DNA from: Antedon mediterranea | Taxonomy: Eukaryota > Echinodermata > Crinoidea > Comatulida > Antedonidae | NCBI RefSeq assembly: GCF_964355755.1 | Contig: NC_092677.1 | Coordinates: 19,438,101 to 19,502,100, forward strand | DNA length: 64,000 nucleotides | Direction of reading: 5' to 3' | Shown here: piece after piece, positions 19,069-45,196 of the stretch | How the letters are laid out: the number at the start of each line of letters is the position of its first letter | Numbering within the stretch: position 1 is the stretch's first letter | Notes under the pieces: generated by a model | Told to the model about the DNA's origin: nothing | What the model saw: the letters and a program-made list of their open reading frames with translations, nothing else | Database searches by the model: none | Made by a program: the position numbers and the translations under genes

Positions 19069-19267
19069 TTATTGTAATGTAATATACGTATGTAATTCAA
19101 CATCATCATAATTAGAGTGCTCGTTATTACAAAGGGTTGGTATGCTGGTTTCATATTCTGCTTCTGCTGATTTATTTATTATTTTCGCTGGACAACTCAT
19201 ATCTCCCCGATTGGTAATTTTAATTGCTGTGTCATTCACTACCGGTACCCTGTTATTCTTTTGAGAC
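19069..19267 (-). CDS. Gene A cytoplasmic-tail exon
   Basis: Acceptor TTATTACAG|G at 19268-19269; the stop TAA is at 19069-19071. The exon continues the TM exon in phase 2 and encodes 65 residues starting SQKNNRVPVVND. It has three tyrosines near the end: 'EAEYETS', 'SNYDDVEL' and 'HTYITLQ'. S-N-Y-D-D-V fits the ITIM pattern [SIVL]xYxx[ILV]; H-T-Y-I-T-L has the YxxL half only. It is too short and unstructured for an enzyme domain. Confidence 0.75.
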
Positions 19268-21291
19268 CTGTAATAAATGTATATAATACAATATCATGAA
19301 GTTAGGGTTTTATATGGCTCTATAACCGACAACAAATGGAAGAGAAAAAGAACAAATTGAAGTGGAAATTGAAGTGTTTAAAACAAATAATGATTTCAAA
19401 TACTAAACGTAACATCCTAATTGCGCAGATGTTGTTTATTTGAATGAGTCACAAGTAAATTACCCAAAGACATCAGCAATCACGGTGCAATACTAACAAT
19501 ACCCAAAGCTCTGTCTACACTATCAAACTAACAAAAAATGTTATGTGGCCATATGGACATATCACTACCATATTTAGGCACATCACACTTTTTTTTGTCA
19601 AACTAGTTTGCTAGTGTAGACAGAGCTTTAGTTTTTTATATCAACATAATATAAATGTACAAACCTGCGATAACAGAATACACTTAGAATAATCACCAAT
19701 ATGATGATAACAAGAATAATTATTACAACCAATATGTAAACTGGCAATTCAGCAGATGAATCTGAACTTGGTGTTGATCCATTTGGTCTTTGAACTTTCC
19801 GTTGTTTGGTTAATGCTGTGTCAGAGGTTATTGGTGATCCTTCGGTTACTAAGTTACGCAAATAAAAACGATTCGTTCATCTATTTGATAAATACATTTC
19901 ATATAAACACAAAAATGCTATCTACCAAATACAAAAATAACAAACATAAACCCTCAGAATTTTGTAACAATTATTACATGTAACACCATTATCATCGTAC
20001 ATGCATAAATTTTTATAATGTAATTACCATCTGCTGGTGTGGAACTAATGTTAGCGCAGTCAGGTACGTTTTCTGGTTGAAGACACTGATCAGAAGTCTC
20101 GTCGTAGGCCAATCCACTAGGACATGGCTGAACTGTACTACCTCCATTTACACAGGCCACATAGACAGAACAGTTGGTCGGATGAGCATAATTACCATCA
20201 GATCTCTGATTACACACGTCATCGGGATCTGTAAAACAATCACTTTGACCATCAGATCTCGGATCACACAGATCATCGGGATCTGTAAAACAATCACATT
20301 GGCTATCAATGGTAATATGAACAACACATTTCCGTAAAGTATGAAATAAATGATCATATCTTCAGAAATGATTATGGTCTTCATCATAGCCATGTGTATT
20401 TACCATCTGCTGGTGTGGAACTAATGTTAGCGCAGTCAGGTACGTTTTCTGGTTGAAGGCACTGATTAGAAGTCTCATCGTAGGCCAATCCGTTAGGACA
20501 TGGCTGAATTATACTTCGTCCATTTGAACAGGCCACATAGACAGAACAGTTGGTCGGATGAGCATAATTACCATCAGATCTCAGATCACACACGTCATCG
20601 GGATCTGTAAAACAATCACATTGGCTATCAATGGTAATATGAACAACACATTTCCGTAAAGTATGAAATAAATGATCATATCTTCAGAAATAATTATGGT
20701 CTTCATCATAGCCATGTATAGTTACCATCTGCTGGTGTGGAACTAATGTTAGCGCAGTCAGGTACGTTTTCTGGTTGAAGGCACTGATTAGAAGTCTCAT
20801 CGTAGGCCAATCCATTAGGACATGGCTGAATTATGCTTCGTCCACTTGAACAGACCACATAGACAGAACAGTTGGTCGGATGAGCATAATTACCATCAGT
20901 TCTCAGATCACACACGTCATCGGGATCTGTAAAACAATCACATTGACCATCAGATCTCGGATCACACAGATCATCGGGATCTGTAAAACAATCACATTGG
21001 CTATCAATGGTAATAATATGAACAACACATTTCCGTAAAGTATGAAATAAATCATCATATCTTCAGAAATAATTATGGTCTTCATCATAGCCATGTGTAG
21101 TTACCATCTGCTGGTGTGGAACTAATGTTAGCGCAGTCAGGTACGTTTTCTGGTTGAAGGCACTGATTAGAAATCTCATCGTAGGCCAATCCATTAGGAC
21201 ATGGCTGAATTATACCTCGTCCACTTGAACAGGCCACATAGCCAGAACAGTTGGCCGGATGAGCATAATTATCATCAGATCTCTGATCACA
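19069..21291 (-). CDS. Gene A: membrane receptor with tandem chitin-binding (CBM14) domains
   Basis: Multi-exon minus-strand gene, 3' part. Exons in transcript order: four CBM14 exons (21105-21291 incomplete, 20726-20926, 20404-20604, 20028-20228), a juxtamembrane/TM exon (19665-19848) and a tail exon with stop (19069-19267). Phases agree throughout: CBM14 exons are 1-1, the TM exon is 1-2, and the tail enters in phase 2 (AG|G = Arg). Predicted type I membrane protein: chitin-binding ectodomain, Ser/Thr/Pro stalk, TM helix, 65-residue tail with an S-N-Y-D-D-V motif. CBM14 binds chitin; in invertebrates it occurs in peritrophins and in immune proteins such as VCBPs. The 5' exons (signal peptide) were not found: the outermost CBM14 exon is cut at the edge of a large inverted-repeat element. 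Function as a recognition receptor is inference. Confidence 0.75.
19505..19629. mobile_element. 125-bp MITE in gene A intron
   Basis: Terminal inverted repeats AAAGCTCTGTCTACACTA (left, last base variable) and the matching TAGTGTAGACAGAGCTTT at the right, extending inwards with CAAACT. It lies in the intron between the TM and tail exons. No target duplication could be fixed with confidence (outer bases CCC versus CT), so the superfamily is open. Confidence 0.8.
19665..19848 (-). CDS. Gene A stalk and transmembrane exon
   Basis: 184-nt exon, acceptor AACTTAG|TA (19849-19850) and donor CGCAG|GTTTG. It encodes a Ser/Thr/Pro-rich stalk (VTEGSPITSDTALTK, later 'GSTPSSDSSAE') and one Ile/Val/Leu-rich transmembrane helix of about 22 residues beginning LPVYILVVIII, followed by 'CYRR' as stop-transfer. 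A decayed copy lacking the TM part lies at 32500-32625. Confidence 0.8.
20028..20282 (-). CDS. CBM14 exon 1 of gene A with two in-frame acceptors
   Basis: Chitin-binding type-2 domain with six Cys spaced C-x13-C-x5-C-x9-C-x12-C-x8-C (VCNQRSDGNYAHPTNC, then 'VYVAC', 'QPC', 'DQC', 'PDC') and the usual aromatics. Donor GCAGATG|GTAATT at 20028. Acceptor TTTTACAG|ATCCC gives the start at 20228. The same acceptor sequence recurs 54 nt upstream (start 20282), still in phase 1, and would add an 18-residue DPDD/Cys mini-repeat. Confidence 0.8.
20404..20604 (-). CDS. CBM14 exon 2 of gene A
   Basis: Same six-Cys chitin-binding module as exon 1, with 'VCDLRSDGNYAHPTNC' and 'NGRSIIQPCPNGL'. Acceptor TTTTACAG|ATCC and donor GATG|GTAAAT, phase 1-1. 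Flanking intron sequence (the AAATGATCATATCTTCAG segment) is nearly identical to that of the other copies, so whole exon-intron units of about 320-370 bp were duplicated recently. Confidence 0.8.
20726..20980 (-). CDS. CBM14 exon 3 of gene A with two in-frame acceptors
   Basis: Six-Cys chitin-binding module; nearly identical to exon 2 apart from 'VVCSSGRS' in the centre. Donor GATG|GTAACT at 20726. The proximal acceptor gives the start at 20926; an identical upstream acceptor, start 20980, adds the same 18-residue mini-repeat as in exon 1. Confidence 0.8.
21105..21291 (-). CDS. CBM14 exon 4 of gene A, cut at its 5' side
   Basis: Chitin-binding module with donor GATG|GTAACT. On the minus strand its 5' end is interrupted at about 21291, where the terminal inverted repeat of the 21.3-25.5 kb element begins; the expected DPDDV start and acceptor are missing. 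Sequence beyond the other end of that element (after 25466) does not resume the exon, so this is not a simple reversible insertion. The exon is probably not spliced normally. Confidence 0.65.
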
Positions 21292-21671
21292 TAGTCCAAG
21301 AGCATTAGTTCATAAGTATAGGCAGACTCGGACATTTCTGGTAACAAGCTAATTTTTTCAGGAAAGGTCCAGAACTATGATTGGAATATCATACTAAAAG
21401 TCCCGAAAAATCCTCCTTGTGCTCGCCGAGAAATCCAAGATGGCGTCCAAAATGGCTGCCATTTTAATTAGTCTATAACTATGTAACCGCTTGTCATAGA
21501 GTATTGATTTTGGTGTCAAATAGTTCACATTATATACATTCCTATTTGCTGTAACAGAAAATTTTGTCAAAAAATGGCCGCTACTACAGTTTCTGGTAGT
21601 TTGACCTTTAACCTGGTCTTATCATATCTCGGTAATGGTTTTTCATAGAGAATTGAGATTAGGCCCAAATT

Positions 21672-22628
21672 TAGTCTGGGTTCCAGACGGAGTTTTGTCT
21701 TAATATTAGTTAAAAGATAAATATTTTGGCACATATGGCGTTTCATACGTATACTACTTGATTTTGGATACTCCGTCTGGGGAAACACGCACAAGTCACG
21801 TGGTTTGACACCAAGAATTCTTGGTGCATACGATTATCCGGTTGACTAGTTTCAGCTGCATGCGATTGGCTACTCTCTCGTACACCGTTTAAATATTCAT
21901 ATTTAAGAATTTCAAAGACTCAACAAATAAGATGATGCGCATGCGCTATGTTACGTTTAGACAATGTGTACTTGGGTACATTTATGAAAGTTCTGAAGGC
22001 TAGAAATTATTTTATATGCCTAGTAGTCTGGTAAACATTTGATGGGATCTTTGAAACATGAAAACTCGTCTTGATATATGATAGGCTAGCTTCTCCGCAA
22101 ATCAAACATTGAATGGATCATTTATTACGCGGAGATAATTTTGATTTAATTCCCACCCAGACCCTGTCCTGTTCTGTGTGTGGTGGTGTAGCCCTGTTGT
22201 GTGCCGGTGGTATGTAGGCCTACTTCATTGGCGTTTTATTTGGCAGGTCATACGTGCGAGTTGAGTAGGACCTACGAAAGAGGCCTAGGCCAAGGACTAA
22301 ACAATTAATAAACAAAACAACTTGGCATTACTATTTTATATTTCAACAGTCTCGATCGTACATTAAGCACTGGTAGGCCTACGTACTCGATCTCTTTCAT
22401 TTTGAAACAAAATGATCATTGGTTGATTCGAAATCCATATTTACATACCGCCCGCCCCATATAGCCAAATACGGTATGATAACCTACGTCATTCTTATCA
22501 TAATGTTTGCGGTCTGCAAATCGATTTCTATACGTGTTTCACAAGTCTGTATTTTCAGACAAAAATCGCGGTCGAAATAAAAACAAATAAATAAAAAAAA
22601 AAGATAATACAGACTTGGGGCAAGTCTA
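21672..22628. mobile_element. 957-bp DNA transposon with 9-bp target duplication
   Basis: Flanked by perfect GCCCAAATT at 21663-21671 and 22629-22637. The uninterrupted target is visible in the opposite arm of the host element (reverse complement near 25125-25145), which proves the borders. Ends are TAGTCTGGGTTCCAGAC and CAGACTTGGGGCAAGTCTA. Each end is itself a small hairpin, and both share only TAGWCT outermost. No ORF. A 162-bp deletion derivative lies at 48365-48526. The 9-bp duplication suggests Mutator-like mobilisation. Confidence 0.9.
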
Positions 22629-23128
22629 GCCCAAATTGTTCAGAACATGCATATTTATATTTGGTGTAATAAAATATTTTATCCCAAAATGACTGGAAGT
22701 GAGGTTATTGACCTCTTATTGACATATTCAAATATCTTTTACCGTATCTCAGGAAATATTTGTCGTAGGTCATAACTTTTGGTGTCAAATTGTTTGGAAC
22801 ATATACATTTCTATTTAGTCTAATACAACAGTTTCCCTTAAAATGCTCGGAAGTAAGTTAATTTATTGAAAATTAAAAAAATCAAAGAGCTGCATAGGCA
22901 GAGTATATATGAATACTGTAGATAAAATGAAAATCAAAGTTTTAACTCTGCCTTCAACTCTTCTCTGTGGTTCGGGCATACCACATCATCAGGTAAAGTG
23001 AATTGTTACAAAAAGAAAATATAAAGTCAATAACTTAAAAGAACAACTGTCAGTGGCTAATCAAAGTTGGTTAAGTAACCAAAAGACAATTGGCAAATAC
23101 CCTTTATCTGCAATGTTTAGATTAGAAT

Positions 23129-23620
23129 TTTAAAAGCGACTCTATAGCTCACTATGTCGGTCGGTAAACACTAACTCATATAAATATTTTTTCACTATTT
23201 TGACACTGGATATTAATACTTGGAGGCAAGTATAAATGTTTTTAAACATTTTTCAACATTTTTTAACATTTTCAGTAATTTCGGTCGGTTGGTCAGTCGG
23301 TTAACACTAACTCATATTCATATTTTTTCGTTATTTTGATACTGGATAATAACACTTGGAGGGAAATATAAATGTTTTTAAACATTGTTCAACATTTTTT
23401 AACATTTTCAGCAATTTCAGTTGGTCGGTTGGTAAACACTAACTCATATTCATATTTGTTCGTTATTTTGACACTGGATATTAATACTTGGAGGCAAATA
23501 TAAATGTTTTTAAAAATTGTTAAACATTTTTTTAACATTTTCAGCAATTTCGGTCGGTTGGTTGGTCGGTCAGTCAGTAAACAATAACTCAAATTTGCAC
23601 ACGCGACTGCAGCCATGTTG
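23129..23620. repeat. ~135-bp tandem repeat, three to four units
   Basis: Units start with 'GGTAAACACTAACTCAT' at about 23163, 23299, 23431 and (partial) 23575. Each contains 'ACTGGATATTAATACTTGGAGG' and runs of TTTTTAACATT, and is separated by CGGTCGGTTGGT. The block is bounded by GCGACTCTATAGCTCAC and CACACGCGACTGCAGCC. A short version of the same element without the tandem units is at 46785-46915. Confidence 0.85.
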
Positions 23621-23799
23621 ACTTTGTAAAAATAATCCATTTGAAACATTTCTTGTTTTAAATGTTCGTTATATGGTTTATTTATGATAAAAAGAGAATG
23701 TACCCTAGGTATTTCGCGTGAAACGCTCTTTACTCGGCATGCATATACTTTTTTTTTTCAGATTCAGATTTGTTTTGGTCCTTGCGGAAATCCATGAAA

Positions 23800-23882
23800 A
23801 ATAGATAGGAAGACCCGGGCAATGACCCGGTACCTCCCACATGCTAAGTGAGCGCTCTACCATTTGATCTAGTCCACCAGTT
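23800..23882 (-). tRNA. tRNA-Ala(AGC)-like pseudogene or SINE head
   Basis: On the minus strand the sequence reads TAGATCAAATGGTAGAGCG (A-box and D-arm), then GCTCACTTAGCATGTGGGAG (anticodon arm with AGC) and GGTACCGGGTCATTGCCCGG (T-arm). This matches tRNA-Ala in order and spacing. The T-loop reads GTCATTG in place of GTTCGAT and the acceptor stem is imperfect, so it is a pseudogene or the head of a SINE rather than a working tRNA. Confidence 0.6.
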
Positions 23883-25465
23883 ACATATTTAACTGTTTAA
23901 AGAAAAAATTATTGCCATATGCCCTATAGGATTTATTATATATTGAAAATATGCAAAATAAGGGTCTTTAAATCACTGTAACATTGATCAGCAGCATTCT
24001 GTTACAGTCATTCATCATCTGATGTTGCATCTTCAACATCTTGGTGTTTGTTGCTTCTTTCACATCATTATCTTCATGTTCATCTGTATGGATGCCGTTG
24101 CATATTTGCCATAAAAAGTTATGATGTTAATTTGTTGTCATCTTTAAACAGTTAAAAATGTCTAGTCTGGGCTTCCCGGTTAGAGAACATTCAAGAGTGC
24201 ATTCTCTTTTAAAACGAGGAATGACCTGATTTCAGGTTCCAAAATGCATTATTTTTACAAATAAAATGGTGTTTAACATTTGTTTTTGACAATCCAGAGC
24301 AAACACTATGTACATAGTGTTTGCCAATGCAATGTATTTCCATGCGAAATGTATATGACCTGAAAATTTCATTCTCAAAGTATCATAAAGTCTATACATT
24401 TCCTAAATTACATAAAAGTTATACTTCTTCTATGAACAAAAATAATTATCGAAATTCCTATAAAATTTCTGAAAATATGAAGACAAAAGCATTAATTCGT
24501 GTATAACGCGAGTTACAGACGAATAAAGCATTTAAAATGTATTCATGACATCTAAATATTATTGGTGAAATTTTGTAGCAATAACTTTTCAACCATAGCT
24601 AGTATGGAAATTTCAATTAACGTGTCTCTTTTTTTGGTCATGTCCATTTTTTGTAACAAGAGTTACCGATATATTCTTTGTTCTATCGAAATTAAATAAA
24701 TGATTATTTTGGTTTTTTCTTTTCTAGTATAGTTCATACCCAATGTAACACTTGTTTGTAACAATTCACTTTACCTGATTATGTGCTATGCCCGAACCAT
24801 GGAGAAGAGTTGAAGGCAGAGTTAAAACTTTGATTTTCATTTTTATCTACAGTATTCATATACTCTGCCTATGCAGCTCTTTGATTTTTTTTAATTTTCA
24901 ATAAATTAACTTACTTCCGAGCATTTTAGGGGAAACTGTTGTATTAGACTAAATAGAAATGTATATGTTCCAAACAATTTGACACCAAAAGTTACGGCCT
25001 ACGACAAATATTTCCTGAGATACGGTAAAAGATATTTGAATAGGTCAATAAGAGGTCAATAACCTCACTTCCAGTCATTTTGAGATAAAATATTTTATTA
25101 CACCAAATATAAATATGCATGTTCTGAACAATTTGGGCCTAATCTCAATTCTCTATGACAAGCCATTACCGAGATATGATAAGACCAGGTCAAAGGTCAA
25201 ACTACCAGAAACTGTAGTAGTGGCCATTTTTTGACAAAATTTTCTGTTAGAGCAAATAGGAATCAATATACTGTGAACTATTTAACACCAAAATCAATGC
25301 TAAAATGGCAGCCATTTTGGACGCCATCTTGGATTTCTCGGAGAGCACAAGGAGGATTTTTCGGGACTTTTACTATGATGTTCCAATCATAGTTCTGGAC
25401 CTTTCCTGAAAAAAATTAGCTTGTTACCAGAAATGTCCGAGACAAACCCTAATGCTCCTGGACTA

Positions 25466-26090: not shown

Positions 26091-27309
26091 AAGAAGACGG
26101 TCGGTCATGTTTCGACAATTATGTGTAAACCATCAGTCATTAGGAAATAATCGTCATTATTGGTACGATACTAAATAAGTAATTTACATTCTACAGATGT
26201 CAAAATATAACATCCATAGGCCGGTTTAGAGGGTACCAAGGGACTCTTGCCATTATAGAAAGTGCACAAATGGACAAAATAGAGGCTCTTAGGAAAGGTT
26301 TTTTTCCTGGTTAGGACCTCAGAACCCCACAATCATAGATTCGCCCTTAACATTTAATCAAATTCAATTCATCTTTAAATACAATTAAAAAAAAAATCAG
26401 AAAATCATACTACCTTGACCATAAACATATTTCGGCTTACAAGTAACTATAAAGAAAATACTTATAATAAATGACCACATATTAGATTACTAAAAACTGC
26501 TACATGTATTAGTTGAGAGAATTCTTTATGCATACTGAATATGATTGGTAGTATGACCAGTGAGTTGTACAACAACAATGAATATTCATTTTTCTTACAC
26601 GAATGATATGTTATTCATTGAAAACAGGAAAACAAATGCTCTATGCTCCGGATTCATTAAAGTGTATAGGCTCATTATTCATCTGATGATGTTTTTCTTT
26701 CGTAATATAGGCAATGTTTATGCATATCCTCACGAAAGATATTTAAACATACAGACTACGATTAACCTATTTTTCGTAGTTTGATGTAAAGTAGGAAATA
26801 ATAAAAAGCACTGTGAACCTTTCCAATCGGGATTTACAGTAGCCTATTGTTATTTTTACATGTTAATGTTAAAATTCGTTAAATAGTCTGGACAATAATT
26901 TACTGTACAATAGTTAAACACACAAACAATATTACTCCAACGTATGTTAACTATCTTTTCATCTTTCTTCTTTTTGAATATATAATACCGTAACAATTAA
27001 ATTATTTTGAAATGATTGTCATTGTACATTTAATCTGAAATGCAGAAAAAAAAATATTGTTAAAATAAACTAGTTATTAGTTTATTAGTGTTATCTTAAT
27101 TATATAATATAATTATGTATTACCCTTATTTATATTGAAATTGTGTATTGCCAAAGTTGTCACTCCAAGACATTTAGCTATTTTAGGATCAGTTGTTGTA
27201 CCAGCAACTTTGAGTTTTGTTATTGTTTGTTTATTTCTCCTGAAGAAATCCATAAATATATTGTACTTTGTAGCATTAGAGAAGATGGATTATAATAAAA
27301 CCATGTTAC
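26091..27309. other. Spacer between gene B transmembrane exon and SINE
   Basis: No recognisable tail exon homologous to that of gene C is present. A possible acceptor, TGCATTTCAG near 27041, would add only a few codons (Leu-Asn-Val-Gln, stop) to the TM exon. Otherwise AT-rich and featureless. Confidence 0.4.
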
Positions 27310-27391
27310 CTGTACATTGTTATCAACACGATGACTACCAGCACGACGAGTACAACAATGATAGGAAGGGTGATAGTCATGTTCTTTAAAT
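27310..27391 (-). pseudogene. Gene B transmembrane exon
   Basis: Acceptor ATTTTCAG|ATTTAAAG and donor TACAG|GTAAC, phase 1-2. It encodes a single hydrophobic helix with 'TLPIIVVLVVLVVIVL', a near match to the gene C TM exon (35064-35133). The exon itself is intact; the gene around it is not. Confidence 0.7.
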
Positions 27392-29240
27392 CTGAAAATA
27401 TGAAAGTACGTTGTCAGCATGTGACCACCAATCAAATCTGATTTTTAGAGAATTGCTTAGAAATGTAGTAAACTGCATACATGTAGTAAATTGTCAAACC
27501 CTTTTGGGTACATGGAAATAAACATGGTCGTTACCAGAAGGGTTACAGAGGAACACAGAGAAGATTTATTTCAAAGATAGGCCTTACGAATTTTCACAAA
27601 ATGTTCAATTTATATTACATACATTTCTCGCCACATTGCATTCCTGAATATCCCGCCTTACAAGTGCATTGGTAAAGAGCTATTCCGGCGAATACATTCA
27701 CTATTCCTGGAGCATGACATGGTGGCACAAACTATGAAATACAACCTTAATCAACTATCACAATTTCATAAAAACTAATCTGTTGTTCTTCTTTATATCA
27801 TAATTCACATCACGGATCACCATATTCACAATCATCATTATCTAACTATCCCACAAAATCGATACCGGTAATATATTATAGTTTCCTAACAATCGAAATA
27901 TTATGGTTGATTTTAATGTACCATCTATGGTGCACTGATTTCCAGAAAATCCCGTGACACACTCATAAACGTAGCCGTATGCCACTGGAACACATGTTCC
28001 TGAATTATAACAGGGATCACTTGCACATGCTAAAAATGCATTAACCATATGGATGATGTTGACAACTAAACGCAATGGATGTAACTTTTTGTGTGTGTAA
28101 AGTATTAATTATAAATAACAATTATAAAGATGTTAATTTTAATAATTGTTATGGAAGATTAAGTTACTTTAATTTATAAACTATATAGAGGGCGCTATCT
28201 TCTCCTTCTAATTAAATTGCATTATTTGAGTGCAATTTGCATACACTACTGGGTAGAATATTAGTTGAAAATGCCAGGCCAACTTACCGTAAACTTCGCA
28301 ATCGTGACCTACATATCCGATTTGACAGGCGCATGAAGACCCAGTTTCACCTCTGATACATGTTGACCCTTCCTGACACGTATTGTTGGAGCAAACAAAA
28401 AACAACACTATTGCGTGAGTTTTATGTAAATATCCAAATATAACTATAATAAAGCTGTTCTCATCAAAATTTACTTTACAGATGCTTGTTTGTTGATTTA
28501 GATGTGACGGTAATAATTCCAGCTTTTGGAAATTAGAAGAATAAACACTTTAGTTTAAACTTATCGATTTTTAACATCTTAAATAAAACTAGGACACTCA
28601 TAATTGTAAATCGCCAAAACAAGATACGTATTTCTTTAATAGACGATAACTGTTCGTTGTTCAGGTAACTCGATATCTTCTATCAGCAAAATAATAGTTC
28701 GGATCTTTAACTTAGATATTCAAAAAGTTCCGAAAAACAAGTTAAAGCTTATAATAAAATATGTAAGCTCTACCAAATGTGGTTGCCACAACTTCATTTA
28801 AAAGTGGAAGGTTTGCACCATAAATAGAACATGATTGTGACAATACAAACATTCAGGGCACCTGAAATACACTGCAAGAGAACTTGTTGTATTGATATGA
28901 AATATTATTGAAATATTTTAAGAATGATTGCAGTTTACCATCATATTGACACCTTGTTCCAAAATAACCAACTCACAGTGACAAGTGTACCGACCTCTAG
29001 CGCATAGTCCATAATTAAGGCATGGGTTAGGCTCACACGCTGCAGAAAAAAAAATGAAGTTTACTAAAGATCTTAAATGAAAATATATTCATTCTATTTA
29101 TGCTGCTTAGGGCTGTAGTAGGTACTTACAATCAACTTGGCACATTTATCCTGAAAAACAAATACCACAGCTACAATTAAAACTACTACCAGGACCTCGA
29201 ATACAAGTACCATTATTGGTACATGGGTTTGAAGCACATG
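27310..29240 (-). pseudogene. Gene B: decayed partial copy of the EGF receptor gene C
   Basis: Exons in transcript order: 29130-29240 (EGF; in-frame stop between 'CFSG' and 'MCQ'), 28939-29039 (EGF; one base lost after 'YTCHC'), 28288-28390 (EGF intact, but the acceptor AG has become TG), 27922-28029 (EGF; a Cys replaced by Tyr in 'YVYECV'), 27623-27731 (EGF; two bases lost before 'CTCKAGYSG') and 27310-27391 (TM). Each has a counterpart in gene C in the same order, and introns are alignable (for example 'GTGGTTGCCAC'). No convincing tail exon. The lesions make a functional receptor unlikely. Confidence 0.75.
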
Positions 29241-29344
29241 CTAATAGAAATAAAACTTGTGATTCATTAACTGGTAAGTTGTATGACATTCTTTAATTAT
29301 TATAACTTATATACAGTAGGTATGTGGTTGGGCGTACATTCTTC

Positions 29345-29545
29345 CTACAAGATGCTCCCTATACCACTGAATTAGGGAATAAATAAGATAACCTAGACTA
29401 AGCTGAATATTATAACAATAACAATATAATATTGTTGGAATATGTGTGTAACGGAGTCTCTATGCCAATATTTTGAAACACCATTATATGCTGTAGATAA
29501 CAATATCTTGTTATCCATCATGCTCGCATATTCCTCCAGAATAGC
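29345..29545 (-). repeat. Duplicated block with half an EGF exon (copy 1)
   Basis: From 'ACAAGATGCTCCCTATACC' to the half-exon encoding CNIGYSGGICEHDG. The same block occurs at 33005-33235 with about 95% identity by eye. The exon's first half is missing here; its relative in gene C is the EGF exon at 41138-41248. Confidence 0.75.
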
Positions 29546-29571
29546 CAATATTGCAGTCGACTAAAATTGAC

Positions 29572-29980
29572 TTGCTGCAACCACTGGTTGCCAAGATACA
29601 AGTACCTATTTGTGTTTGTTCATATAACCCTTGACCCTGACCCTTTGACCTTTTGTAACATTTTTCAAAATGTGCAACAAATAACAAAATGTATATTGCG
29701 AACAATTGAAGACCCAATTCAAGTGTCTACGACCAGAACTTACGGAGATACATACATGCCCTGTGTAGTGGGTCAAAGGTCAGAAATAGCATTTCCGGTC
29801 ATTTTTGACTAAAATTAGACTGCATATAAATATATACCTTCTGATCAATTTGAGACCAAAATTACCTTTCTGTGACCAGTGGTTGTTGAGATTTAAGGAC
29901 CTATTGGTGTTTGGTGTTATAACGTTTCACCCTGACCTTTTGACCTTTCGCCACAATTTCAAAATGTGTAACCAAGCCAA
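29572..29980. repeat. Two-unit diverged repeat rich in TGACC
   Basis: Segments starting 'ACCACTGGTTGCCAAGAT' (about 29578) and 'ACCAGTGGTTGTTGAGAT' (about 29873) align over some 100 bp, each with CCTGACC and TTTGACCTTT followed by 'TTTCAAAATGTG'. Spacing is about 296 bp. They resemble the subunit style of the terminal repeats at 21.3-23 kb. No gene. Confidence 0.65.
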
Positions 29981-32499: not shown

Positions 32500-33003
32500 T
32501 ATGTAAACTGGCAATTCATCAAATTAATCTAAACTTGGTGTTGATCCATTGGGTCTGAACTTTCCGTTGTTTGGTTAATGCTGTGTCAGAGGTTATTGGT
32601 GATCCTTCGGTTACTAAGTTACGCAAATAAAAACGATTCGTTCATTTATTTGATAATTACATTTCATATAAACACAAAAATGCTATCTACCAAATACAAA
32701 AATAACAAACATAAACCCTCAGAATGTTGTAACAATTATTACATGTAACACCATTATTATCGTACATGCATAATTGTTTATAATGTAATTACCATCTGCT
32801 GGTGTGGAACTAATGTTAGCACAGCCAGGTACGTACGTTTTCTGGTTGAAGACACTGATCAGAAGTCTCGTCGTAGGCCAATCCACTAGGACGTGGCTGA
32901 ACTGTACTACCTCCATTTACACAGGCCACATAGACAGAACAGTTGGTCGGATGAGCATAATTACCATCAGATCTCTGATCACACACGTCATCGGGATCTG
33001 TAG
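32500..33003 (-). pseudogene. Displaced copy of gene A stalk and CBM14 exons
   Basis: Collinear with 19733-20233. The stalk part (about 32500-32625) has a three-base-class indel in 'GGGTCTGAACTTTCC' and lacks the TM segment. The CBM14 exon (32786-32997) has Cys changed to Arg ('VQPRPSG') and a four-base duplication (GTACGTAC) that shifts frame near the end. It joins directly to the gene B-derived block at 33003. Clearly non-functional. Confidence 0.8.
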
Positions 33004-33004
33004 G

Positions 33005-33310
33005 CCTACAAGATGCTCCCTATACCACTGAATTAGGGAATAAATGAGATAACCTAGACTAAACTGAATATTATAACAATAACAATATAATATTGTTGGA
33101 ATATGTGTGTAACGAAGTCTCTAGGCCAATATTTTGAAGAAAAAAAAAAAAATATTTTGAAACACCATTATATGCTGCAGAGAACAATATCTTGTTATCC
33201 ATCATGCTCGCATATTCCTCCAGAATAGCCAGTCGCAACGGTATTCACTACCTGGACCTCGATCACAATTACGAAAATGTAAACACGGATTGGGAACACA
33301 CGATTACAAG
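33005..33310 (-). pseudogene. Displaced EGF-exon block (copy 2)
   Basis: 33005-33235 duplicates 29345-29545. It is fused near 33230 to the front half of an EGF exon ('CVPNPCLHFRNCDRGPGSEY'), so the two halves are out of frame with each other. The flanking A-rich insertion (about 33140-33152) is new to this copy. Confidence 0.7.
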
Positions 33311-34522: not shown

Positions 34523-34742
34523 TTATTTACTCAACGGTTTCAAATCAGTATATGTTTGTTCCACTGATAAATGAATGTGAAGATCTTGATATTCAGGACT
34601 AACCCTCTTTCCAGACTTGGACAGTGGTGGTAGCGCTGCAACATTACTAATAGTTGAAATAGCAACATTTTCATAAGTAGCCATATTCATTCCTGTAGTA
34701 GGCATATCGTTCATTCGTTTGTTCTTCATGTAAACATACGAC
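34523..34742 (-). CDS. Gene C cytoplasmic-tail exon
   Basis: Acceptor TTTTATATAG|G, phase 2 entry completing Arg after the TM helix; the stop is at 34523-34525. It encodes about 72 residues starting SYVYMKNKRMND. Tyrosine motifs: 'ATYENVAI', 'PEYQDLHIHL' and 'QTYTDLKPL'. The last two are YxxL boxes nine residues apart, close to the 6-8 spacing of an ITAM (with Glu three before the last Tyr), and each is also a possible hemITAM. No enzymatic domain. Confidence 0.75.
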
Positions 34743-37700
34743 CTATATAAAATGTGTTTGTAGCTTGTCATGATTATAATTGTCGTAGAAGAAAAGTGAT
34801 TTCATAATTTTGTTTAAAGCCACCAAGCAATAAAGCTACCAAGCAATAAAGCTAAAATCAATACGATAAAAACTGTAAAGATTAGAAAGTACACGAGGGT
34901 GCCACAAGTACGTATTCATTACTGTAGTAGGCCTATAGTTCATTCATGGGTGCCACAGATTGATCCAATTGATACAATATAAATTAGTATATTAAAATAT
35001 TACTCTAGTAAAATTAATAGTATATTGTACATAAACAATACCTGAAAGTGAAATATCAATTACCTGTAAATGATGACTGCCAGCACGACGAGTACAACAA
35101 TGATAGGAAAAGTGATTATCATAGTTTTTAAATCTTCAAATGAAGTAGAATACAATTGAACTAAAGTGTACGCATTAAATCCGTTACTTGAAATTGCCGG
35201 CCACACAGGCACAGAGAAAAACTAAAGAGTTTTTTCGAAAACACTATACTTAAACAGAAATAACATGTTAAGCATTTTCTATTACTTACATTTCTCGCCA
35301 CATAGCGTTCCTGAATACCCTGCCTCACAAGTGCATTGGTAGAAAGAGCTATTCTGGCGAACACATGCACCATTGTTAGAGCATGATACGTTGGCACAAA
35401 CTAAGAAATACAGTATTAATAAAATACAAATTATTATGTTTCCATGTATTATCTTTATGTAAGATAATAATGAGTAGTACAACCCATAATCACCTTATTG
35501 TATAATCATTTAATTATTTTTTTTTTTTTTTTTTTATTTCATCATATAATACATTACAAAGGAAAAACATAATCAAATAAAAAATTAAAATAAAAAGCAA
35601 CAAACAAAAACAACAAAGATATCCATCTAACAAATTAAATAAAGGTTCATAAAAATTATTCTACTCTATAAACCATTTTATATTTGATTTATAAATTCTT
35701 CTAATTTTATCCATTTTCTATTAAAAATACTGTCCTCAAAATTCTGATGATAAATAAATTTTTCTGTTTCATAAAACCTTTTTAACTCGTTCATAACCAT
35801 TCTGATAGTTGGCTTACATTTAACTAGTTTACATTTATAAATAAATGATTTTACAATTAGAATAATTGCATTAATGGCTTTTAAATTAAAAAACTGATGC
35901 GCATCTTGGTATCCGAAAATTATGCTCTCTTTACTAAAAATAAATTGCACTCCAGTTTTTTCTGAAATTTTTTCCTGGAGGAGGTTCCATATCCTTTTTA
36001 CTATTGGAAAATTACAGAACAAATGCTGAATGGTTTCAATTTTACCATCTCCAAATGAGCACATTGAAGTTTCTTTTATATTCATTTTAAATAATTGTTC
36101 ATTTGTTGCAATTATTCTATTTACAATTTTATATTGAAAATATATTAAAGCAATATTCATTGTACACGTATGTGGAGCTAGGTAGATTGTTTTCCATTGT
36201 TCGTTATTGAATACAAATTTATTTTCTGCCCATTTCTTTTGTGCTTTCCATGATTTAAACATTGAGTTATTTAAAACATCATAAAAAATACGACATCCCT
36301 TTCTTTGTTGAAAGAGTACTTTTATGTGAAATGGAATATCTGGCAAAACTGTTTTTTTAATTTCACATATCATTAAATTGTTAAATTTTTCCCTAAGAAG
36401 CCTTTTTAATCCTATTAATTTTATATAATTTATCTTAATACCATAGGTATCTTCGACTTCTTTTTTATTCATAAATTGCCCATTGCTGTTAAACAAATCA
36501 TTAACAAACAAAATACCTGCTTTTTCCCAATTTCCATATCTTATACATTCGTTGCCTATTCTTATTACTTCATTATTCCAAATTTGCATTCGTAATAGCT
36601 CGTCAACAGACTTTGGATAATGAATAGAAATAAAATTACTCCATGCATCTATTACCTCTTTCCAGAAGAGAATTTTAACATTATCTCTAATGCTGGACAG
36701 ACGTTTACAATTCGTTTCAAGTTGCATAGAGTTAGACAAATTTGTTATGTACTTAAATAGCTTAAATATTGGGTTGTCTTCGGATTTATTCTACGCAACC
36801 AAGTTATTTTTAATGACATAAAAAAAAAGTTCAAATCTACCATTCTTAATCCACCATGTAAGTAATCACTTTTCATCTGATGCCGGTTTATTTTATCAGG
36901 TTTGTTTTGCCAAATAAAACGAAAAAATAAATTATTAAGACGTACTACGTATTCATTTGATGGGTTCGGTAAGGACATGATCATATGAATGAGTTTTGGT
37001 AACAAGAGTGATTTAATAATAGTTATTTTACCAATTACTGTCAAGTTTCTTTTAGACCATTGGTTTATCATACGCTCTATCGTTAAAAACACTCTTTCAT
37101 AGTTTACATTAATCATTTGAACTGCATCTAATGAAAAGTCAATACCTAAAATTGAAAATATGGCATTGCCTATCCAGTTTATCTTTTTTCTTGTTTTTAA
37201 CCTTACATTGCTACCTCTCTTACTACCTATCCATACAACTTTTGTTTTTTCTTCATTTATTCTTAAACCGGAAATACTCTCGTATGTATCCAGTGTATCG
37301 AGTGTTGCATGCAGTGATGCTTCAGACCCATCAAGTATAATGGTAGTGTCGTCTGCATATTGAGATATTGTATATTCCTTATCTCTAATTTTAACTCCCT
37401 TAATTAGTTTGTTTTGCTTTATTAAATTATTCAATATTTCTGCACAAATTATAAAAATATATGGAGAAAGAGGGTCTCCTTGTCTACAGCCTCTTTCAAT
37501 TTTAAAACGATTTGACATAGCACCGTTAACATTAACTGAGGAATACATTTCCGAATAAAAAATTGTAATCCACCTTCTAATAGACTCGCCAAAGTTAAAC
37601 ATTTCCATGGCTCTATCAATGAATATATGTGAAACAGAGTCGAAGGCTTTTTCGAAGTCAATTAATAATAGCATACCGGGAATCTTTAACTGTTCACTAA

Positions 37701-40700
37701 GACATATAATGTCATTCATTAGTCTAATATTTTCGCCAATAAATCTATCTGGCATAAAACCGTTTTGCTCTCTACTTATAATATGACTTAATACATTCTT
37801 TATTCGATTAGCTATACATCCAGACGCTAACTTATAGGTGATGCTTAATAGTGATATAGGTCGCCAATTTTTTAGAAGGTCCCTTGGTTTATTCGGTTTA
37901 GGTATAAGCGTTATGATTCCAATTTGTTGAGATTGAGATAGTTTTCCGTTCTTATACACCCAATCGAGCATTCTAACTAAATAACCACTAATATTAATCC
38001 AGAAAAATTTAAAGAATTCGGCGGAGAAACCATCTTGTCCGGGACTTTTATTGTTTTTCATATTTTTAAGAACTTGTAATATTTCATCAATTGTTAATGG
38101 CCCTTCAATTTCCTCCTTTTGTTTTTGTGATAATTTTGTCATACTATTTTTTTCAAATATTGTTTTCATAGTTACAAGATCAATTTTAACGTCTTTGTTT
38201 TTGTACAATTTGTTATAATAACTTTCTACATTCTTTATAATTTGTTTATTATCAGTTATATCCTGACACATTTCCCTCCTAATTTTATTCAAACTTTTAT
38301 TTACAATCTTTTTTTTCTCCAAATTAAGGAAGAAAGAAGATGGTTTTTCCCCTTGTTCCACCAACTGAGCTCGCGATCTCAGCATGATCCCTTCAATTTT
38401 AACCATACGTAATTGTTGTAATTCAATCTTTATGGAATTTAGCTCTTCAATATTGTTGTCCATTTCTGGACCAATTTGAAGTTCATCCATCTTTCTTTCA
38501 ATTACATTAATTTTATCTTCTAATTCTTTTTCTCGCTTTTCATTTTCTTTTTTTAACCTTGAGGAGAACGAAATTGTTTTGCCTCTTATTCCTAAGAGCA
38601 ACATTTCAAAAAATAATGCATCATTAATAGAAAGGGACAAATCTGAGACTGGGATATCTTTAATTGTGTCTCTTTTGTATGGCGACGCAGCATATAGTTC
38701 TGTAATTGTTTGGATTTCTTTTTTAACTATTTTAACATATTCCTCATTTCTTAACAAGCTATTATTGAACTTCAATTAGGTGATTCTATCTTTTTCATTT
38801 AATTATGATCAATACTATACTATTCTAATAATAATATTATTGTGATGAAAGTTTACCATCTATGGTGCACTGATTTCCAGAAAATCCCGTGACACACTCA
38901 CAAACGTAGCCGTATGCCACTGGAACACATGTTCCTGAATTATAACAGGGATCACTTGCAGATGCTAAAATATTCAGTAATTATGTTTCAATTACTATTC
39001 AATCTCACAACTATATATATATATATATATAGGGCCTACATCAAATGCTCTGCTATTGGCATTAGAATTCACGGGAAGTAATAATAATAGAAAGTAATTT
39101 TATGTTTTACCATGTACAATGTAATGTCTTTGGAAACTCAGCATTAAAGCCCTCTTTGGCTTACTTGAGATTCCACGCATAAACAAAGACTTACCAAGAT
39201 TTTTAGTATGATCTTTAGTTTTTTCTTACTTTATGTGGAACAATAACAAATAAAAATGGAAATAATGTTTCAATAACCTGTTACCGTTTAAATGACAATA
39301 CGGGGCACTTTTTTTATGTAATTTTTGAGAATTGTAGTAAAATTTTCATACTTTTCAGGTGTACATTATCATCAACTGTTAATAAATTTGAACTTACCGT
39401 ACATCTCACAATAATCACCTACATATCCAATTTGACAGGCGCATGACGAACTAATTTGGCCCCTGATACACGTTGACCCTTTCTGACACGTGTTGTTGGC
39501 GCAAACTAAAGGGAAAAACACAGCACTATTTCGTGATTCTACGCGTTTCGTATACAAACTCATTATAGCAACATTATAGGCCGAAACCTTAGTAAAAGGT
39601 TCTCATCAAAATGTACTATAGTCTGTATTTTTAATTAGAAAATCAACATCGTAAGCAAAATTAACTTTAATATTTTCTACATCCACTAACTCACGTGGTT
39701 GCCACTTCAAGTGGAATGTCATACCATAACTACATGATTGGGACAGTAAAGGTAAACTAAGGTAGCTGCATGAGTTTAAGAGAACGTCTTTATACGGAGT
39801 TATACCATATTACATATTATATACATTATCATATTTTAAAACGTATTGCAGTTTACCATCATCTTGACACATTGTTCCAAAATAACCAACTCCACAAAAA
39901 CAAGTACTGTATACCGACTACCTGGACCTCTAGCGCATACTCCAAAATTAAGACATGGGTTAGGCTTACATGCTGAAGAAAATTGGAGACACAACAACAA
40001 TGTTACTACAGACATTATGTTTCTTCATTCATTATTGGAATTTCATTTTTGTATGATCTATTATTATTTTATACTGGGTAGCCTCTTCAGTCAAAGACTG
40101 TTCTCTCCGAGGTCCCAGTTATGATCAGTGGCTGCGTGTGGTAACCCCCTACTCGTCTCGAAAGATGTACTAGGTTCTGCACATGCACTGGACCTATTGT
40201 AACAGTATATAGACTCATTCTACCACCAGAACTATGGAGCATGGAACTCTTGCCGATGTTATGGCTACGTAATTACGGTTCCACTGTCTTATAGAAATTG
40301 TTTGACTTAAAATTATAAGTTAACGTTCAACAAATTCCAATAATCAATTTTAATTGATTTTCTTCTCGTAGGTACTTACCATCATGTTGGCACATTTCTC
40401 CTGAAAAACCAATACTACATCTGCAATTAAAGCCACTACCAGGACCCCGAATACATGTACCATTATTGGTACATGGGTTTGAAGCACATGCTATTAAAAG
40501 AACAGAGCTTACTTATTAAATCAACACAGATATTGTACAACAATAAACAACAACAATCCAAACTATACAAAAAATTTAACCGGTTTTAGAGTTTTTAATT
40601 TGAAACACTACAGTACTGCTTAAACGCTCCTAATACCACTCACATTGTTCATAATTTTAGATACATGTAGTGGCAAGATTCCTGTTCAAAAGAATTGTTC

Positions 40701-43700: not shown

Positions 43701-45196
43701 AGATTACATGCTATATAATTCAAATTTTACACTTATAATAATTGAGAATGCAAATAAGATAAAAAGTTCTAGCAACAACGTTTAACAATTATATTATAAA
43801 TTACAAAATAAACAAGTTACCGTCGGTTTGGCATCTAGTTTCTGAATATCCATCCCGACAGCCACATGTGTATCCACTGCCCGGACCTCGAATACAACGT
43901 CCAGAATTATAACAGGGATTCGGATTACAGACTAAATTTTAAATAATAGTGACAACGACTGAAAATACATTTAAATTTGTAAAAAGTATAGTAATTAAGA
44001 GTGTAAATAATGGTAAAAAGTTCTAAAAAACGTTTTACGATAATTATTATATTATAAATTACAAAATAAAACTTCTTACCGTCGTTTTGGCATCTAGTTC
44101 CTGTATATTCATGCCGACAGTCACATGTGTATCCACTGCTGCCCAAACCTCGAATACAACGTCCAGAATTATAACAAGGATTCGGACTACAGACTAAAAT
44201 AAAAAAATAGCAAAACAAAACAAAATTATAATTGTTAACGTCATCTGACATGGCATCTTTGTCACACGTGTATTATATTTGCTGGTCCTCGATTACAACT
44301 TCCAGGGTTCCGATTACAGTTTATAACATTCTACTAAATTTGTATTAGTTTTTGTCAGTGCAGTAAAGTAGGCTCTACTGTAAAATTGTACAGTCTTTTT
44401 ATGTTATAAAGAAATATTAACAAAACTGTAGATGATAAATTAATGCTACCCCCCACATGTAATTTTAAAGGGGTTAGTGGTTAAGGTAATTTTTCAAACA
44501 AAAATTAGAATTCAATTTAAATGCAATTTATTTATTATTATATTGTTTATATACTTGTTTATGCCGTCAATAAGTATAGTTAATTTATATTTGAAATATT
44601 CTGAATAATATTACCATCAACATCACAGGTTGGTCCTGAAAACCCCGGCTCACAGACGTTGCATTCGCAAGTTCTTGCAGTACGGCATGGACAAGAAGGT
44701 CCTGGGGCAGGAACTATTGGGACAAGGGAACAATCAGTAATCAAACATACATATTATTTATAAATACCACGGCACCATAGTTAATTATCTATTTTTGGTT
44801 CAATGCAACTATATACCCACCACTTTATTGGCTATTATTTCCACCTATAGCCTACCCGTGAATTCACGGCTAGCTATACAGATATAGTCTGAGCTTGTTG
44901 AGATTTACCAACCTACTAGGTCAGGTGGTCAGTGTCAGCTCGTGACTCCCAATTATTCCAATTTCCAGCTGAAAACTACCGTATTATTTTCCAACAAACC
45001 TTTTTTTGTAATCTTATATCTAACAATTTGTCCATTTCATGTTTGTTTTTTTTCAATTCAATATCAATAATTCCAGTTAATGAATTAATGTGTGTTATAT
45101 TCACCACATTAAAGCTAAAATAACATAAAATAACATACCAAATATCATCGTTGCTTTAAACAAAAGAAATAACGACTTTAATAACCAAGATCTCAT
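34523..45196 (-). CDS. Gene C: multi-EGF type I membrane receptor with tyrosine-motif tail
   Basis: Exons in transcript order: signal peptide 45139-45196; Cys-rich start 44616-44713; EGF 44080-44193, 43821-43931, (43612-43710 disabled), 42514-42591 (shortened), 41523-41636, 41138-41248, 40380-40490, (39857-39972 frameshifted), 39398-39505, 38857-38964, 35290-35400; TM 35064-35133; tail 34523-34742 with stop. All ectodomain exons are phase 1-1, so a damaged exon could be skipped without loss of frame. The model gives a signal peptide, about ten EGF repeats, one TM helix and a 72-residue tail with three YxxL/V motifs. EGF arrays with short tyrosine-motif tails occur in phagocytic and adhesion receptors. 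A 3.3-kb LINE lies in the intron between 38857 and 35400. Splicing is predicted, not shown. Confidence 0.75.
35064..35133 (-). CDS. Gene C transmembrane exon
   Basis: 70-nt exon, acceptor TTTGAAG|ATTTA and donor TACAG|GTAATT, phase 1-2. It encodes 'MIITFPIIVVLVVLAVIIY', a single helix followed by Arg from the next exon. Close paralogue of the gene B TM exon. Confidence 0.8.
35290..35400 (-). CDS. Gene C membrane-proximal EGF exon
   Basis: Six-Cys EGF module: 'VCANVSCSNNGACVRQN', then 'YQCTCEAGYSGTLCGEK'. Acceptor TTCTTAG|TTTG and donor AAAT|GTAAGT. Intact, unlike its gene B counterpart. Confidence 0.8.
35678..36739 (-). pseudogene. L1/Tx1-like LINE ORF2: C-terminal region
   Basis: 353 open codons continuing the RT ORF after one frame break near 36740. 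It ends with a Cys/His segment 'CSFGDGKIETIQHLFCNF', the C-x(n)-H-x3-C arrangement seen at L1/Tx1 C-termini. Since the only lesions are the 5' truncation and this shift, the insertion is probably young. Confidence 0.85.
36745..38775 (-). pseudogene. L1/Tx1-like LINE ORF2: RT domain
   Basis: 676 open codons. A helical, Lys/Glu-rich linker (residues 70-120) precedes the RT: 'SPGQDGFSAEFFKFFW', 'NWRPISLLSITYKL', 'LLLIDFEKAFDSV' (motif A), 'RGCRQGDPLSPYIF' (motif B) and 'QYADDTTIIL' (motif C). The L1-type thumb follows with 'FFRFIWQNKPDKI' and 'HGGLRMVDL'. All catalytic Asp residues are present. The listed start is a TTG at the truncation edge and is not a genuine initiator. The frame ends at 36745 with a shift into the C-terminal ORF. 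Confidence 0.9.
38807..38856. other. Intron remainder next to LINE
   Basis: Short intronic stretch between the LINE's distal target duplication and the EGF exon donor. Confidence 0.5.
38857..38964 (-). CDS. Gene C EGF exon
   Basis: EGF module 'SDPCYNSGTCVPVAYGY' then 'VCECVTGFSGNQCTID'. The first Cys is replaced by Ser ('ASASD' where gene B has 'ACASD'), so one disulphide partner is missing. Acceptor TTTTAG|CATC and donor GATG|GTAAAC. Confidence 0.75.
39011..39031. repeat. (TA)n microsatellite
   Basis: Ten TA dinucleotides in a gene C intron. Confidence 0.9.
39398..39505 (-). CDS. Gene C EGF exon
   Basis: Six-Cys EGF module 'VCANNTCQKGSTCIRG' and 'CACQIGYVGDYCEMY'. Acceptor CTTTAG|TTTG and donor TACG|GTAAGT, phase 1-1. 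Its gene B copy has lost the acceptor AG. Confidence 0.8.
39857..39972 (-). pseudogene. Gene C EGF exon, frameshifted
   Basis: 'ACKPNPCLNFGVCARGPGSR' reads normally, then an insertion (ACAGT class, net +2) before 'TCFCGVGYFGTMCQDD' shifts frame. Splice sites CTTCAG|CATG and GATG|GTAAAC remain. Skipping it would keep the mRNA in frame. Confidence 0.7.
40068..40291 (-). mobile_element. tRNA-derived SINE, 5'-truncated copy
   Basis: Reverse orientation relative to 25762-26090. It shares the body segments 'CCCCCTACTCGTCTCGAAAG', 'CCAGAACTATGGAG' and 'ATGTTATGGCTACGTAAT'. It stops at 'CCACTGTCTTA', within the tRNA-like head, so the A-box is lost. It sits in an intron of gene C. Confidence 0.85.
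40380..40490 (-). CDS. Gene C EGF exon
   Basis: Six-Cys EGF module 'ACASNPCTNNGTCIRG', 'FNCRCSIGFSGEMCQHD'. Acceptor TTAATAG|CATG and donor GATG|GTAAGT. Intact; the gene B counterpart carries a stop codon. Confidence 0.8.
41138..41248 (-). CDS. Gene C EGF exon lacking last Cys
   Basis: 'ACVPNPCLNVGTCDRI' then 'YRCNCDIGYSGETFEHD'. The sixth Cys is Phe (TTC), so the last disulphide cannot form. Acceptor TTGAAG|CATG and donor GATG|GTATTG, phase 1-1. Confidence 0.75.
41523..41636 (-). CDS. Gene C EGF exon
   Basis: Six-Cys EGF module 'ACVPSPCLNSGTCVRSG' and 'YTCDCGVGYSGENCEID'. Acceptor TTCTAG|CTTG and donor GATG|GTATTT, phase 1-1. Intact. Confidence 0.8.
42514..42591 (-). CDS. Gene C shortened EGF exon
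   Basis: 'SPNHPCYNSGSCIRGPGSGY' then 'TCDD' and the donor. The second half of the module (two Cys and the GYSG turn) has been deleted in frame, so splicing still preserves frame but the domain cannot fold as a normal EGF. Acceptor ATTTAG|CC. Confidence 0.65.
42868..43478. mobile_element. Repeat element bounded by CCTCCGCC / GGCGGAGG with tRNA-like segment
   Basis: Starts TACCTCCGCCAAGGAGG and ends GTAGGCGGAGGTTTG. Inside are a (GT)n run (42902-42962) and two related segments, 'CACAGTTTTTATCCGATTCT' and 'CACAGTTTTGATCCGATTCT' with 'AGGTCAAGGTCAC'. Such 'acctccgccaaggaggtta' repeats recur in marine invertebrates. A tRNA-like block lies at about 43266-43338. It sits in a gene C intron. Confidence 0.7.
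43266..43338 (-). tRNA. tRNA-like segment (pseudogene/SINE-like)
   Basis: Minus strand: GTGGTGTAATGGTTATG (A-box-like) and, some 45 nt later, GGTTCAAGTCCCACTGAG (B-box). Size and order fit a Glu/Val-type tRNA, but the anticodon stem pairs poorly. Probably a tRNA-derived insertion rather than a gene. Confidence 0.45.
43612..43710 (-). pseudogene. Disabled EGF exon of gene C
   Basis: 'ACNLNPCNSEMCIRGP' is followed by a stop (TAA), then 'YTCDCTDGYSGS'. The donor is also not recognisable. A decayed copy of the adjacent EGF exons; presumably skipped. Confidence 0.7.
43821..43931 (-). CDS. Gene C EGF exon
   Basis: Six-Cys EGF module 'VCNPNPCYNSGRCIRGPG' and 'YTCGCRDGYSETRCQTD'. Acceptor ATTTAG|TCTG and donor GACG|GTAACT, phase 1-1. 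Nearly identical to the next upstream exon, showing recent local duplication. Confidence 0.8.
44080..44193 (-). CDS. Gene C EGF exon
   Basis: Six-Cys EGF module 'VCSPNPCYNSGRCIRGLG' and 'YTCDCRHEYTGTRCQND'. Acceptor ATTTTAG|TCTG and donor GACG|GTAAGA, phase 1-1. Confidence 0.8.
44245..44330 (-). pseudogene. EGF-exon remnant
   Basis: Fragments 'CNRNPGSCNRGPA' and then a stop within the former 'YTCDC' region. Two deletions relative to neighbouring exons. A relic of the expanding EGF array. Confidence 0.55.
44616..44713 (-). CDS. Gene C first Cys-rich exon
   Basis: Acceptor CCCAATAG|TTCC and donor GATG|GTAATA, phase 1-1. It encodes 'VPAPGPSCPCRTARTC' and 'CNVCEPGFSGPTCDVD', a compact Cys-rich module resembling half a laminin-type EGF. 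It is the mature N-terminus after signal cleavage. Confidence 0.7.
45139..45196 (-). CDS. Gene C signal-peptide exon
   Basis: ATG at 45194-45196; the 58-nt coding part encodes MRSWLLKSLFLLFKATMIF and ends phase 1 at donor TTTG|GTATGT. The short basic start and Leu/Phe-rich core fit a signal peptide, and the phase matches the next exon. No other ATG in frame lies nearby upstream. Confidence 0.65.

Follow-up and report, generated by a model that had tools for sequence, protein, structure and literature searches.

Two neighbouring crinoid genes with CBM14 and EGF ectodomains as candidate members of a receptor family with tyrosine-box tails

Can two neighbouring receptor genes be told apart as an inhibitory and an activating partner from the tyrosine motifs in their short tails? 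The question is raised by a stretch of 64,000 nucleotides from the crinoid Antedon mediterranea (RefSeq assembly GCF_964355755.1, contig NC_092677.1, positions 19,438,101 to 19,502,100 of the forward strand; hereafter the window), in which three receptor-like units, A, B and C, follow one another on the minus strand from 45.2 to 19.1 kb. An earlier reading made from the sequence alone (the sequence-only reading) had proposed that gene A, whose tail resembles an immunoreceptor tyrosine-based inhibition motif (ITIM), and gene C, whose tail resembles the corresponding activation motif (ITAM), give opposing signals. We searched the whole genome (354 Mb in 18 contigs, with the window on contig C8; other loci are named contig:position) for relatives of both genes. 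Our results suggest that A and C are type I single-pass receptors with exon-shuffled ectodomains and a conserved transmembrane (TM) and tail cassette that would dock SH2 proteins, a reading to which we give a probability of about 0.6, and that both are probably members of a larger family, partly decaying at this locus. The confidences that we attach to the different readings overlap and do not sum to one.

As the sequence-only reading had it, A and C each have an ectodomain, one TM helix and a short tail, and their exons join in frame. The features of the two genes are as follows.

45139..45196, minus strand: gene C signal-peptide exon (MRSWLLKSLFLLFKATMIF), phase-1 donor; placed by position, frame and donor
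44713-44615, 44193-44080, 43931-43821 and 41636-41523, minus strand: gene C EGF exons, phase 1-1, in the model
41248-41138, 40490-40380, 39505-39398 and 38964-38857, minus strand: gene C EGF exons (continued), phase 1-1, in the model
35290..35400, minus strand: gene C membrane-proximal EGF exon, downstream of a long interspersed nuclear element (LINE) insertion; spliced in frame
35064..35160, minus strand: gene C TM exon, phase 1 to 2; spliced in frame
34523..34742, minus strand: gene C tail exon with TYENV and YQDL-x9-YTDL; spliced in frame, tail comparison
26414..26480, minus strand: gene A candidate signal-peptide exon (MWSFIISIFFIVT...), phase-1 donor; hydrophobicity scan with controls, splicing
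20028..21309, minus strand: gene A array of four CBM14 exons, the first split by a terminal inverted repeat (TIR) element; domain hits, repeats, splicing
20926-20726, 20604-20404 and 20228-20028, minus strand: gene A CBM14 exons, all phase 1-1 with AG/GT borders
19665..19848, minus strand: gene A TM exon, phase 1 to 2; spliced in frame
19069..19267, minus strand: gene A tail exon with AEYETSI, SNYDDV and TYITL; spliced in frame

The gene C chain, made of the signal-peptide exon, nine EGF exons, the TM exon and the tail exon, is open over 453 amino acids, and its ectodomain matches Pfam EGF in 8 stretches (E=5.2e-48). The hydrophobic score of its signal-peptide exon is below the cut-off of our scan. 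The EGF exons at 41248 and 38964 have five cysteines, not six, and further degenerate EGF exons seen by eye near 43.7, 42.6 and 39.9 kb were left out of the model. The tail carries YENV, YQDL and YTDL as previously described, the last two nine residues apart. One intron of gene C holds a LINE reverse-transcriptase frame at 36745-38775 (RVT_1, E=2.2e-37).

Gene A gives an open chain of 350 amino acids to the tail stop, with AG/GT borders. Its ectodomain matches Pfam CBM_14 in 3 stretches (E=8.1e-47), which agrees with the CBM14 assignment made earlier, chitin binding being predicted from the domain. SNYDDV is present where it had been placed; the sequence-only reading had missed a YITL box, whose tyrosine lies eight residues past that of SNYDDV, and gene A thus has two YxxPhi boxes (YDDV of SNYDDV, and YITL). 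In 1.8 kb, the signal-peptide scan gave a single start combined with three donors. Because two control stretches of 15 kb also gave 2 and 5 hits, the candidate at 26480-26414 is plausible, not secure, as the genuine first exon. Three of the four CBM14 exons are 92.0-97.5% identical pairwise and the adjoining introns 97.5-98.2%, which bears out the exon duplication that had been claimed. The TIR element inside the first CBM14 exon measures ~4 kb (about 21292-25465), with arm blocks 94-98% complementary and, by eye, TA at both borders; at its far flank, near 25480, there is an acceptor in frame with the split exon. According to the Pfam domain searches, which were run on the spliced A and C chains (some paralogue and repeat readings were made by eye), the ectodomains of the two genes are unrelated.

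The tails connect the locus to the rest of the genome. Whole-genome searches identified 12 further tail exons besides those of A and C on five contigs, six on C6, three on C9 and one each on C3, C1 and C8 (C8:22.97M); seven of them are strong copies and five are joined by weaker links. The gene C tail matches C6:277k (E=5.9e-7), C6:430k, C3:38.06M and C6:300k, while the C6:277k tail used as query finds C6:430k, C3, C6:300k, C6:290k, C6:127k and C6:403k at E<0.001 and also recovers gene C, and C9:7.68M at E=0.02. The C9:7.68M tail leads to C9:7.69M (4e-26), C9:7.63M (0.03) and C8:22.97M (0.016). The remaining copy, C1:6.84M, is a weak match (E=0.21) that we judge to be a probable family member from its HYR-like, TM-like and tail frames, which lie in order; its tail was left out of the 13-tail counts and of the shuffle, selection and box analyses given below. 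This tail lies in the first of two very large HYR exon clusters on C1 (6.5-7.3 Mb and 39.0-39.7 Mb), which may contain more members of the family; when it was used as query, a second C1 copy was not found.

The shared series of boxes is TYDDV, EYEISL, SGYQDL-HTYSS and TYTDLK. Of the eight tails nearest to C, counting C itself, seven have box 1, seven have box 2 (gene C being the one without it), and six each have box 3 and box 4; gene C keeps three of the four. Within the C3 tail exon, the TYDDV/EYEISL unit (boxes 1 and 2) is duplicated in tandem. A TM exon of phase 1 to 2 followed by one tail exon with boxes is found in both A and C, the boxes of A having diverged; an acceptor fitting phase 2 was seen by eye before the tail exon at C6:277k, C6:430k, C3 and C6:300k. 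A TM reading frame lies upstream of the tail in 10 of the 12 paralogues; none was seen in the DNA read for C6:300k or for C8:22.97M.

The ectodomains vary. HYR and/or EGF exons lie upstream of the tail in eight of the 12 copies (C6:127k, C6:290k, C6:403k, C6:430k, the three on C9 and the one on C1), with Pfam support for HYR and EGF at C6:290k, HYR at C6:430k and CUB at C9:7.68M; the rest were read by eye, the EGF and CUB of C6:430k falling just under the curated Pfam cut-offs. No ectodomain exon was seen at C3 in the ~1.8 kb read upstream of the TM or at C6:300k in the ~5 kb read, and upstream of C6:277k there is only a domain that Pfam does not recognise. The domain upstream of C6:277k, C6:290k and C9:7.68M looks by eye like a fucolectin or F5/8C domain, an assignment for which Pfam gave no match. 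A partial CBM14 exon, very like those of gene A by eye and covering 36 of 53 profile positions, lies ~10 kb upstream of the C6:127k tail. Wherever checked, the ectodomain exons of the family are phase 1-1. HYR is greatly expanded in this genome (150 scored and 1413 first-look candidates). CBM14 hits at C1:24.5M were considered as possible relatives of A and dropped because the one of the four that was read, C1:24.520M, sits downstream of a chitinase-like end (by eye).

Membership of gene A in this family, as a diverged tail, is moderately supported by the comparisons. None of 2000 shuffles reaches the score of tail A against four of the six C6 tails, and tail A is nearer to these four than to tail C. 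The exon phases of A are those of C. In the TM and juxtamembrane segment A scores 87 with C6:430k, 81 with C6:277k, 78 with C3, 46 with C and 40 with C6:127k; these scores are soft evidence, because TM segments share composition.

Selection gives a partial answer to whether the tail is maintained. The ratio of nonsynonymous to synonymous substitution rates (dN/dS) of tail C is 0.38 against C6:277k and 0.39 against C6:300k (Fisher P=0.006 each), and 0.47 against C6:430k and 0.45 against C3 (P=0.024 each); the P values are uncorrected, and the pairs are not independent. The tail as a whole thus appears to be under constraint in part of the comparisons, the tyrosines not being singled out.

Two further features of the locus bear on how it is judged.

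27120..29560, minus strand: gene B, a duplicate of the 3' half of gene C and a pseudogene; five repeat pairs, reading by eye
32556..33019, minus strand: fragment of gene A type with a single CBM14 exon and the 5' portion of a TM exon; 97% identical to gene A over 279 nt, CBM14 hit

By eye, gene B has a frameshift in its juxtamembrane EGF and a stop in an upstream EGF; its TM is open, and the short tail frame after it has no tyrosine. This broken copy of C bears out the earlier mention of pseudogenes. Downstream of the gene C tail a segmental duplication joins 29344-32500 and 33005-34333, with blocks 93-98% identical, and one of its copies carries reverse-transcriptase-like frames between its blocks (by eye).

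Several observations weigh against reading A and C as working members of one family with a conserved cassette. Tail A used as query finds only itself in the whole genome at E<=0.1; 942 of 2000 shuffles reach the score of tail A against tail C, and A also fails the shuffle test against C6:403k, C9:7.63M and C8:22.97M. A profile built without A gives it 8.7 bits, below some shuffles of A. Most boxes are missing or rearranged in the three C9 tails and in C8:22.97M. Of 500 shuffles, 193 and 65 reach the scores of C8:22.97M and C9:7.63M, respectively, against tail C, and the roughly 6.6 kb read at C8:22.97M showed neither a TM nor an ectodomain exon. The dN/dS of tail C is not significant against C6:290k (0.83) or C6:127k (0.65), and constraint on the tyrosine boxes is no greater than on the remainder of the tail (ratios of nonsynonymous to synonymous differences, pN/pS, pooled over 21 pairs, 0.70 vs 0.61; 7 of the 13 tails, with A, C6:403k, the three C9 tails and C8:22.97M left out), so the sequence does not single out the tyrosines. 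Gene B, between A and C, is a pseudogene, gene C carries degenerate EGF exons, and these together with the broken first CBM14 exon of gene A, split by the TIR element, and the LINE and TIR insertions suggest decay of the locus.

How far the motifs themselves can be trusted depends on chance. We used [SIVL]xYxx[ILV] as the ITIM pattern; an ITAM is YxxL/I-x(6-8)-YxxL/I, or with looser spacing 6-12. The spacing of nine in gene C is outside the strict range and inside the loose one. In 20000 shuffles the ITIM pattern arises in 14.4% for tail A and the ITAM pattern in 2.25% for tail C, and single motifs are therefore weak evidence; at least as many YxxLIV boxes as in the real tail occur in 9.1% of the shuffles of tail A and in 4.2% of those of tail C. 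The motifs of gene C are more than chance because they recur in paralogues. The sequence-only reading was to fall if the tail tyrosines were not conserved among relatives; gene C passes this check, its tyrosines recurring in relatives within the same genome. Taken on its own, A fits the ITIM pattern and not the ITAM, and C the ITAM and not the ITIM. Across the 13 tails, the ITIM pattern occurs in six (once in A) and the YxxL-x9-YxxL pair in five. In three (C6:277k, C6:430k and C3:38.06M) an ITIM-like SxYxxL and the first ITAM-like box fall on one tyrosine, and opposite signs therefore cannot be read from the motifs. The ITIM and ITAM labels do not appear, from these tails, to separate A and C into two kinds.

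The genome encodes SH2 domains that could read such boxes. A SYK-like N-SH2 exon lies at C6:544.9k (against SYK from the PDB, E=1.9e-36) and a SHP2-like N-SH2 exon at C3:14.098M (E=7.2e-32), among 53 SH2 matches at E<=0.001 in the genome; both were identified at the exon level. Activating and inhibitory outputs are therefore possible in principle. The SYK-like SH2 exons (C6:542500-545300) are ~112 kb from C6:430k, the nearest of the C6 tail copies, which span C6:127k-430k.

From these elements we propose the following mechanism. Ectodomains would be built from EGF, HYR, CUB and CBM14 exons and the one domain that Pfam does not recognise, and would be joined to a 3' cassette in which a TM exon that begins in phase 1 and ends in phase 2 (as in A and C) precedes a tail exon with up to four boxes. 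Where the receptors are expressed, clustering upon ligand binding would let a Src-family kinase phosphorylate the boxes, on which partner proteins with SH2 domains would dock, perhaps in an immune role. Given the usual SH2 preferences, the tandem SH2 of Syk would fit the YQDL-x9-YTDL pair, and SHP2, Grb2 or PLC-gamma would fit those boxes or single ones, so that one tail could activate, inhibit or both; loss of single tyrosines in some copies would tune the output. A wider version, in which a fixed TM and four-tyrosine tail cassette with exchangeable HYR, EGF, CUB and CBM14 exons forms an invertebrate recognition repertoire, each tail of which could signal through both Syk and SHP2 with the sign of the response set by copy-specific tyrosine loss, is offered tentatively and seems to us unlikely.

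The opposing pair of neighbours, A inhibitory through its ITIM and C activating through its ITAM, draws on the fit of SNYDDV and of YQDL-x9-YTDL (in loose spacing) and on the encoded SYK-like and SHP2-like SH2 exons. Against it, a single tyrosine serves both patterns in 3 of the 13 tails, tail A also has YITL and is nearer to C6 tails than to tail C, its ITIM pattern appears in 14% of shuffles, and neither the unrelated ectodomains nor the A-versus-C tail score, matched by nearly half of the shuffles, speaks for a pair; we consider it very improbable. From the earlier interpretation, then, the single-pass receptors with tyrosine boxes, the duplication and the pseudogenes are retained, and the opposition of ITIM and ITAM is not supported. 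YxxPhi also acts as a sorting signal, and every one of the 13 tails, A and C included, has at least one such box. A role mainly in endocytic sorting, as in scavenger or adhesion receptors, instead of SH2 docking would suit CBM14, EGF and HYR, which we take to be binding modules here. The acidic residues around the boxes (YDDV, YENV, YQDL) and the retention of the pair would fit use by kinases and SH2 domains, and sorting and SH2 docking may coexist; we hold a mainly sorting role to be unlikely.

The decay at the locus raises a harder alternative, that none of A, B and C still functions and that the active members of their family lie elsewhere in the genome. Besides the broken gene B, this alternative can point to the TIR element inside the first CBM14 exon of A and, in gene C, to several degenerate EGF exons and an intronic LINE. 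Against this, the A and C chains without the broken exons are open to the tail stop, and skipping of the broken exons can keep the frame because they lie among phase 1-1 exons. Tail C is constrained against four of six paralogues, although part of that constraint may lie on the paralogue branches, and AATAAA follows the tails of A and C, a signal common in AT-rich DNA and also present after B. We regard a graveyard as doubtful, while taking it seriously. The checked ectodomain exons, phase 1-1 and on the same strand, would also allow one transcription unit with alternative 3' ends, in which the signal peptide at 45.2 kb is spliced to the C, B or A tail; the candidate signal peptide of A at 26480-26414 and the AATAAA after each tail, both weak, point the other way, and such a unit seems to us scarcely probable. 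The reading of A and C as single-pass receptors with a conserved, SH2-docking cassette remains the one that we prefer.

This reading can be set beside known systems. In paired activating and inhibitory receptors the partners usually share ectodomains, one having an ITIM only and the other an ITAM only or an adaptor, and their signals oppose each other within one cell. The vertebrate examples (FcR-like, LILR, Siglec) have tyrosine-box tails, copy-number change and pseudogenes; their members share ectodomains, whereas A and C (CBM14 vs EGF) do not. The allorecognition receptors of Hydractinia have immunoglobulin-like (Ig-like) ectodomains. Draper is an EGF-repeat single-pass receptor, and an EMI domain marks the Draper/CED-1/MEGF10 family. 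Gene C resembles that family in combining EGF repeats with an ITAM-like pair; its chain shows no EMI domain in Pfam at E<=0.01, no NPXY was seen by eye in the A or C tails, and the family described here differs in adding HYR, CUB and CBM14 exons. According to PMC4503800, Src42A phosphorylates the ITAM of Drosophila Draper-I, which brings in the Syk-related kinase Shark; the ITIM of the Draper-II isoform recruits Corkscrew. PMC12065747 describes FcoR of Botryllus schlosseri (fuhc locus) as clustered receptors whose tails have ITIM, hemITAM or Y-x-x-I/L/V, beside a fester-family partner. Their ectodomains are Ig and sushi (PMC12065747), compared with EGF, HYR, CUB and CBM14 here, and a partner relation is described there, whereas A and C are known as neighbours only. 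The same paper also cites candidate allorecognition genes of Hydractinia as carrying ITAM and ITIM domains. The principle of ITAM/ITIM-type receptors is already known in invertebrates, because Draper and Botryllus FcoR carry such tails. The combination of HYR, EGF, CUB and CBM14 with such a tail was not found in the open PMC literature, by titles and abstract openings of the top-ranked matches. The comparison also carries a caution, since ITIM and ITAM labels taken from short tails can land on one tyrosine. If our reading is true, the divergence of activating and inhibitory tails from one ancestral multi-tyrosine tail becomes a question that can be asked, and an exon-shuffled, non-Ig receptor family joins the invertebrate users of Src-ITAM-Syk/SHP2 logic.

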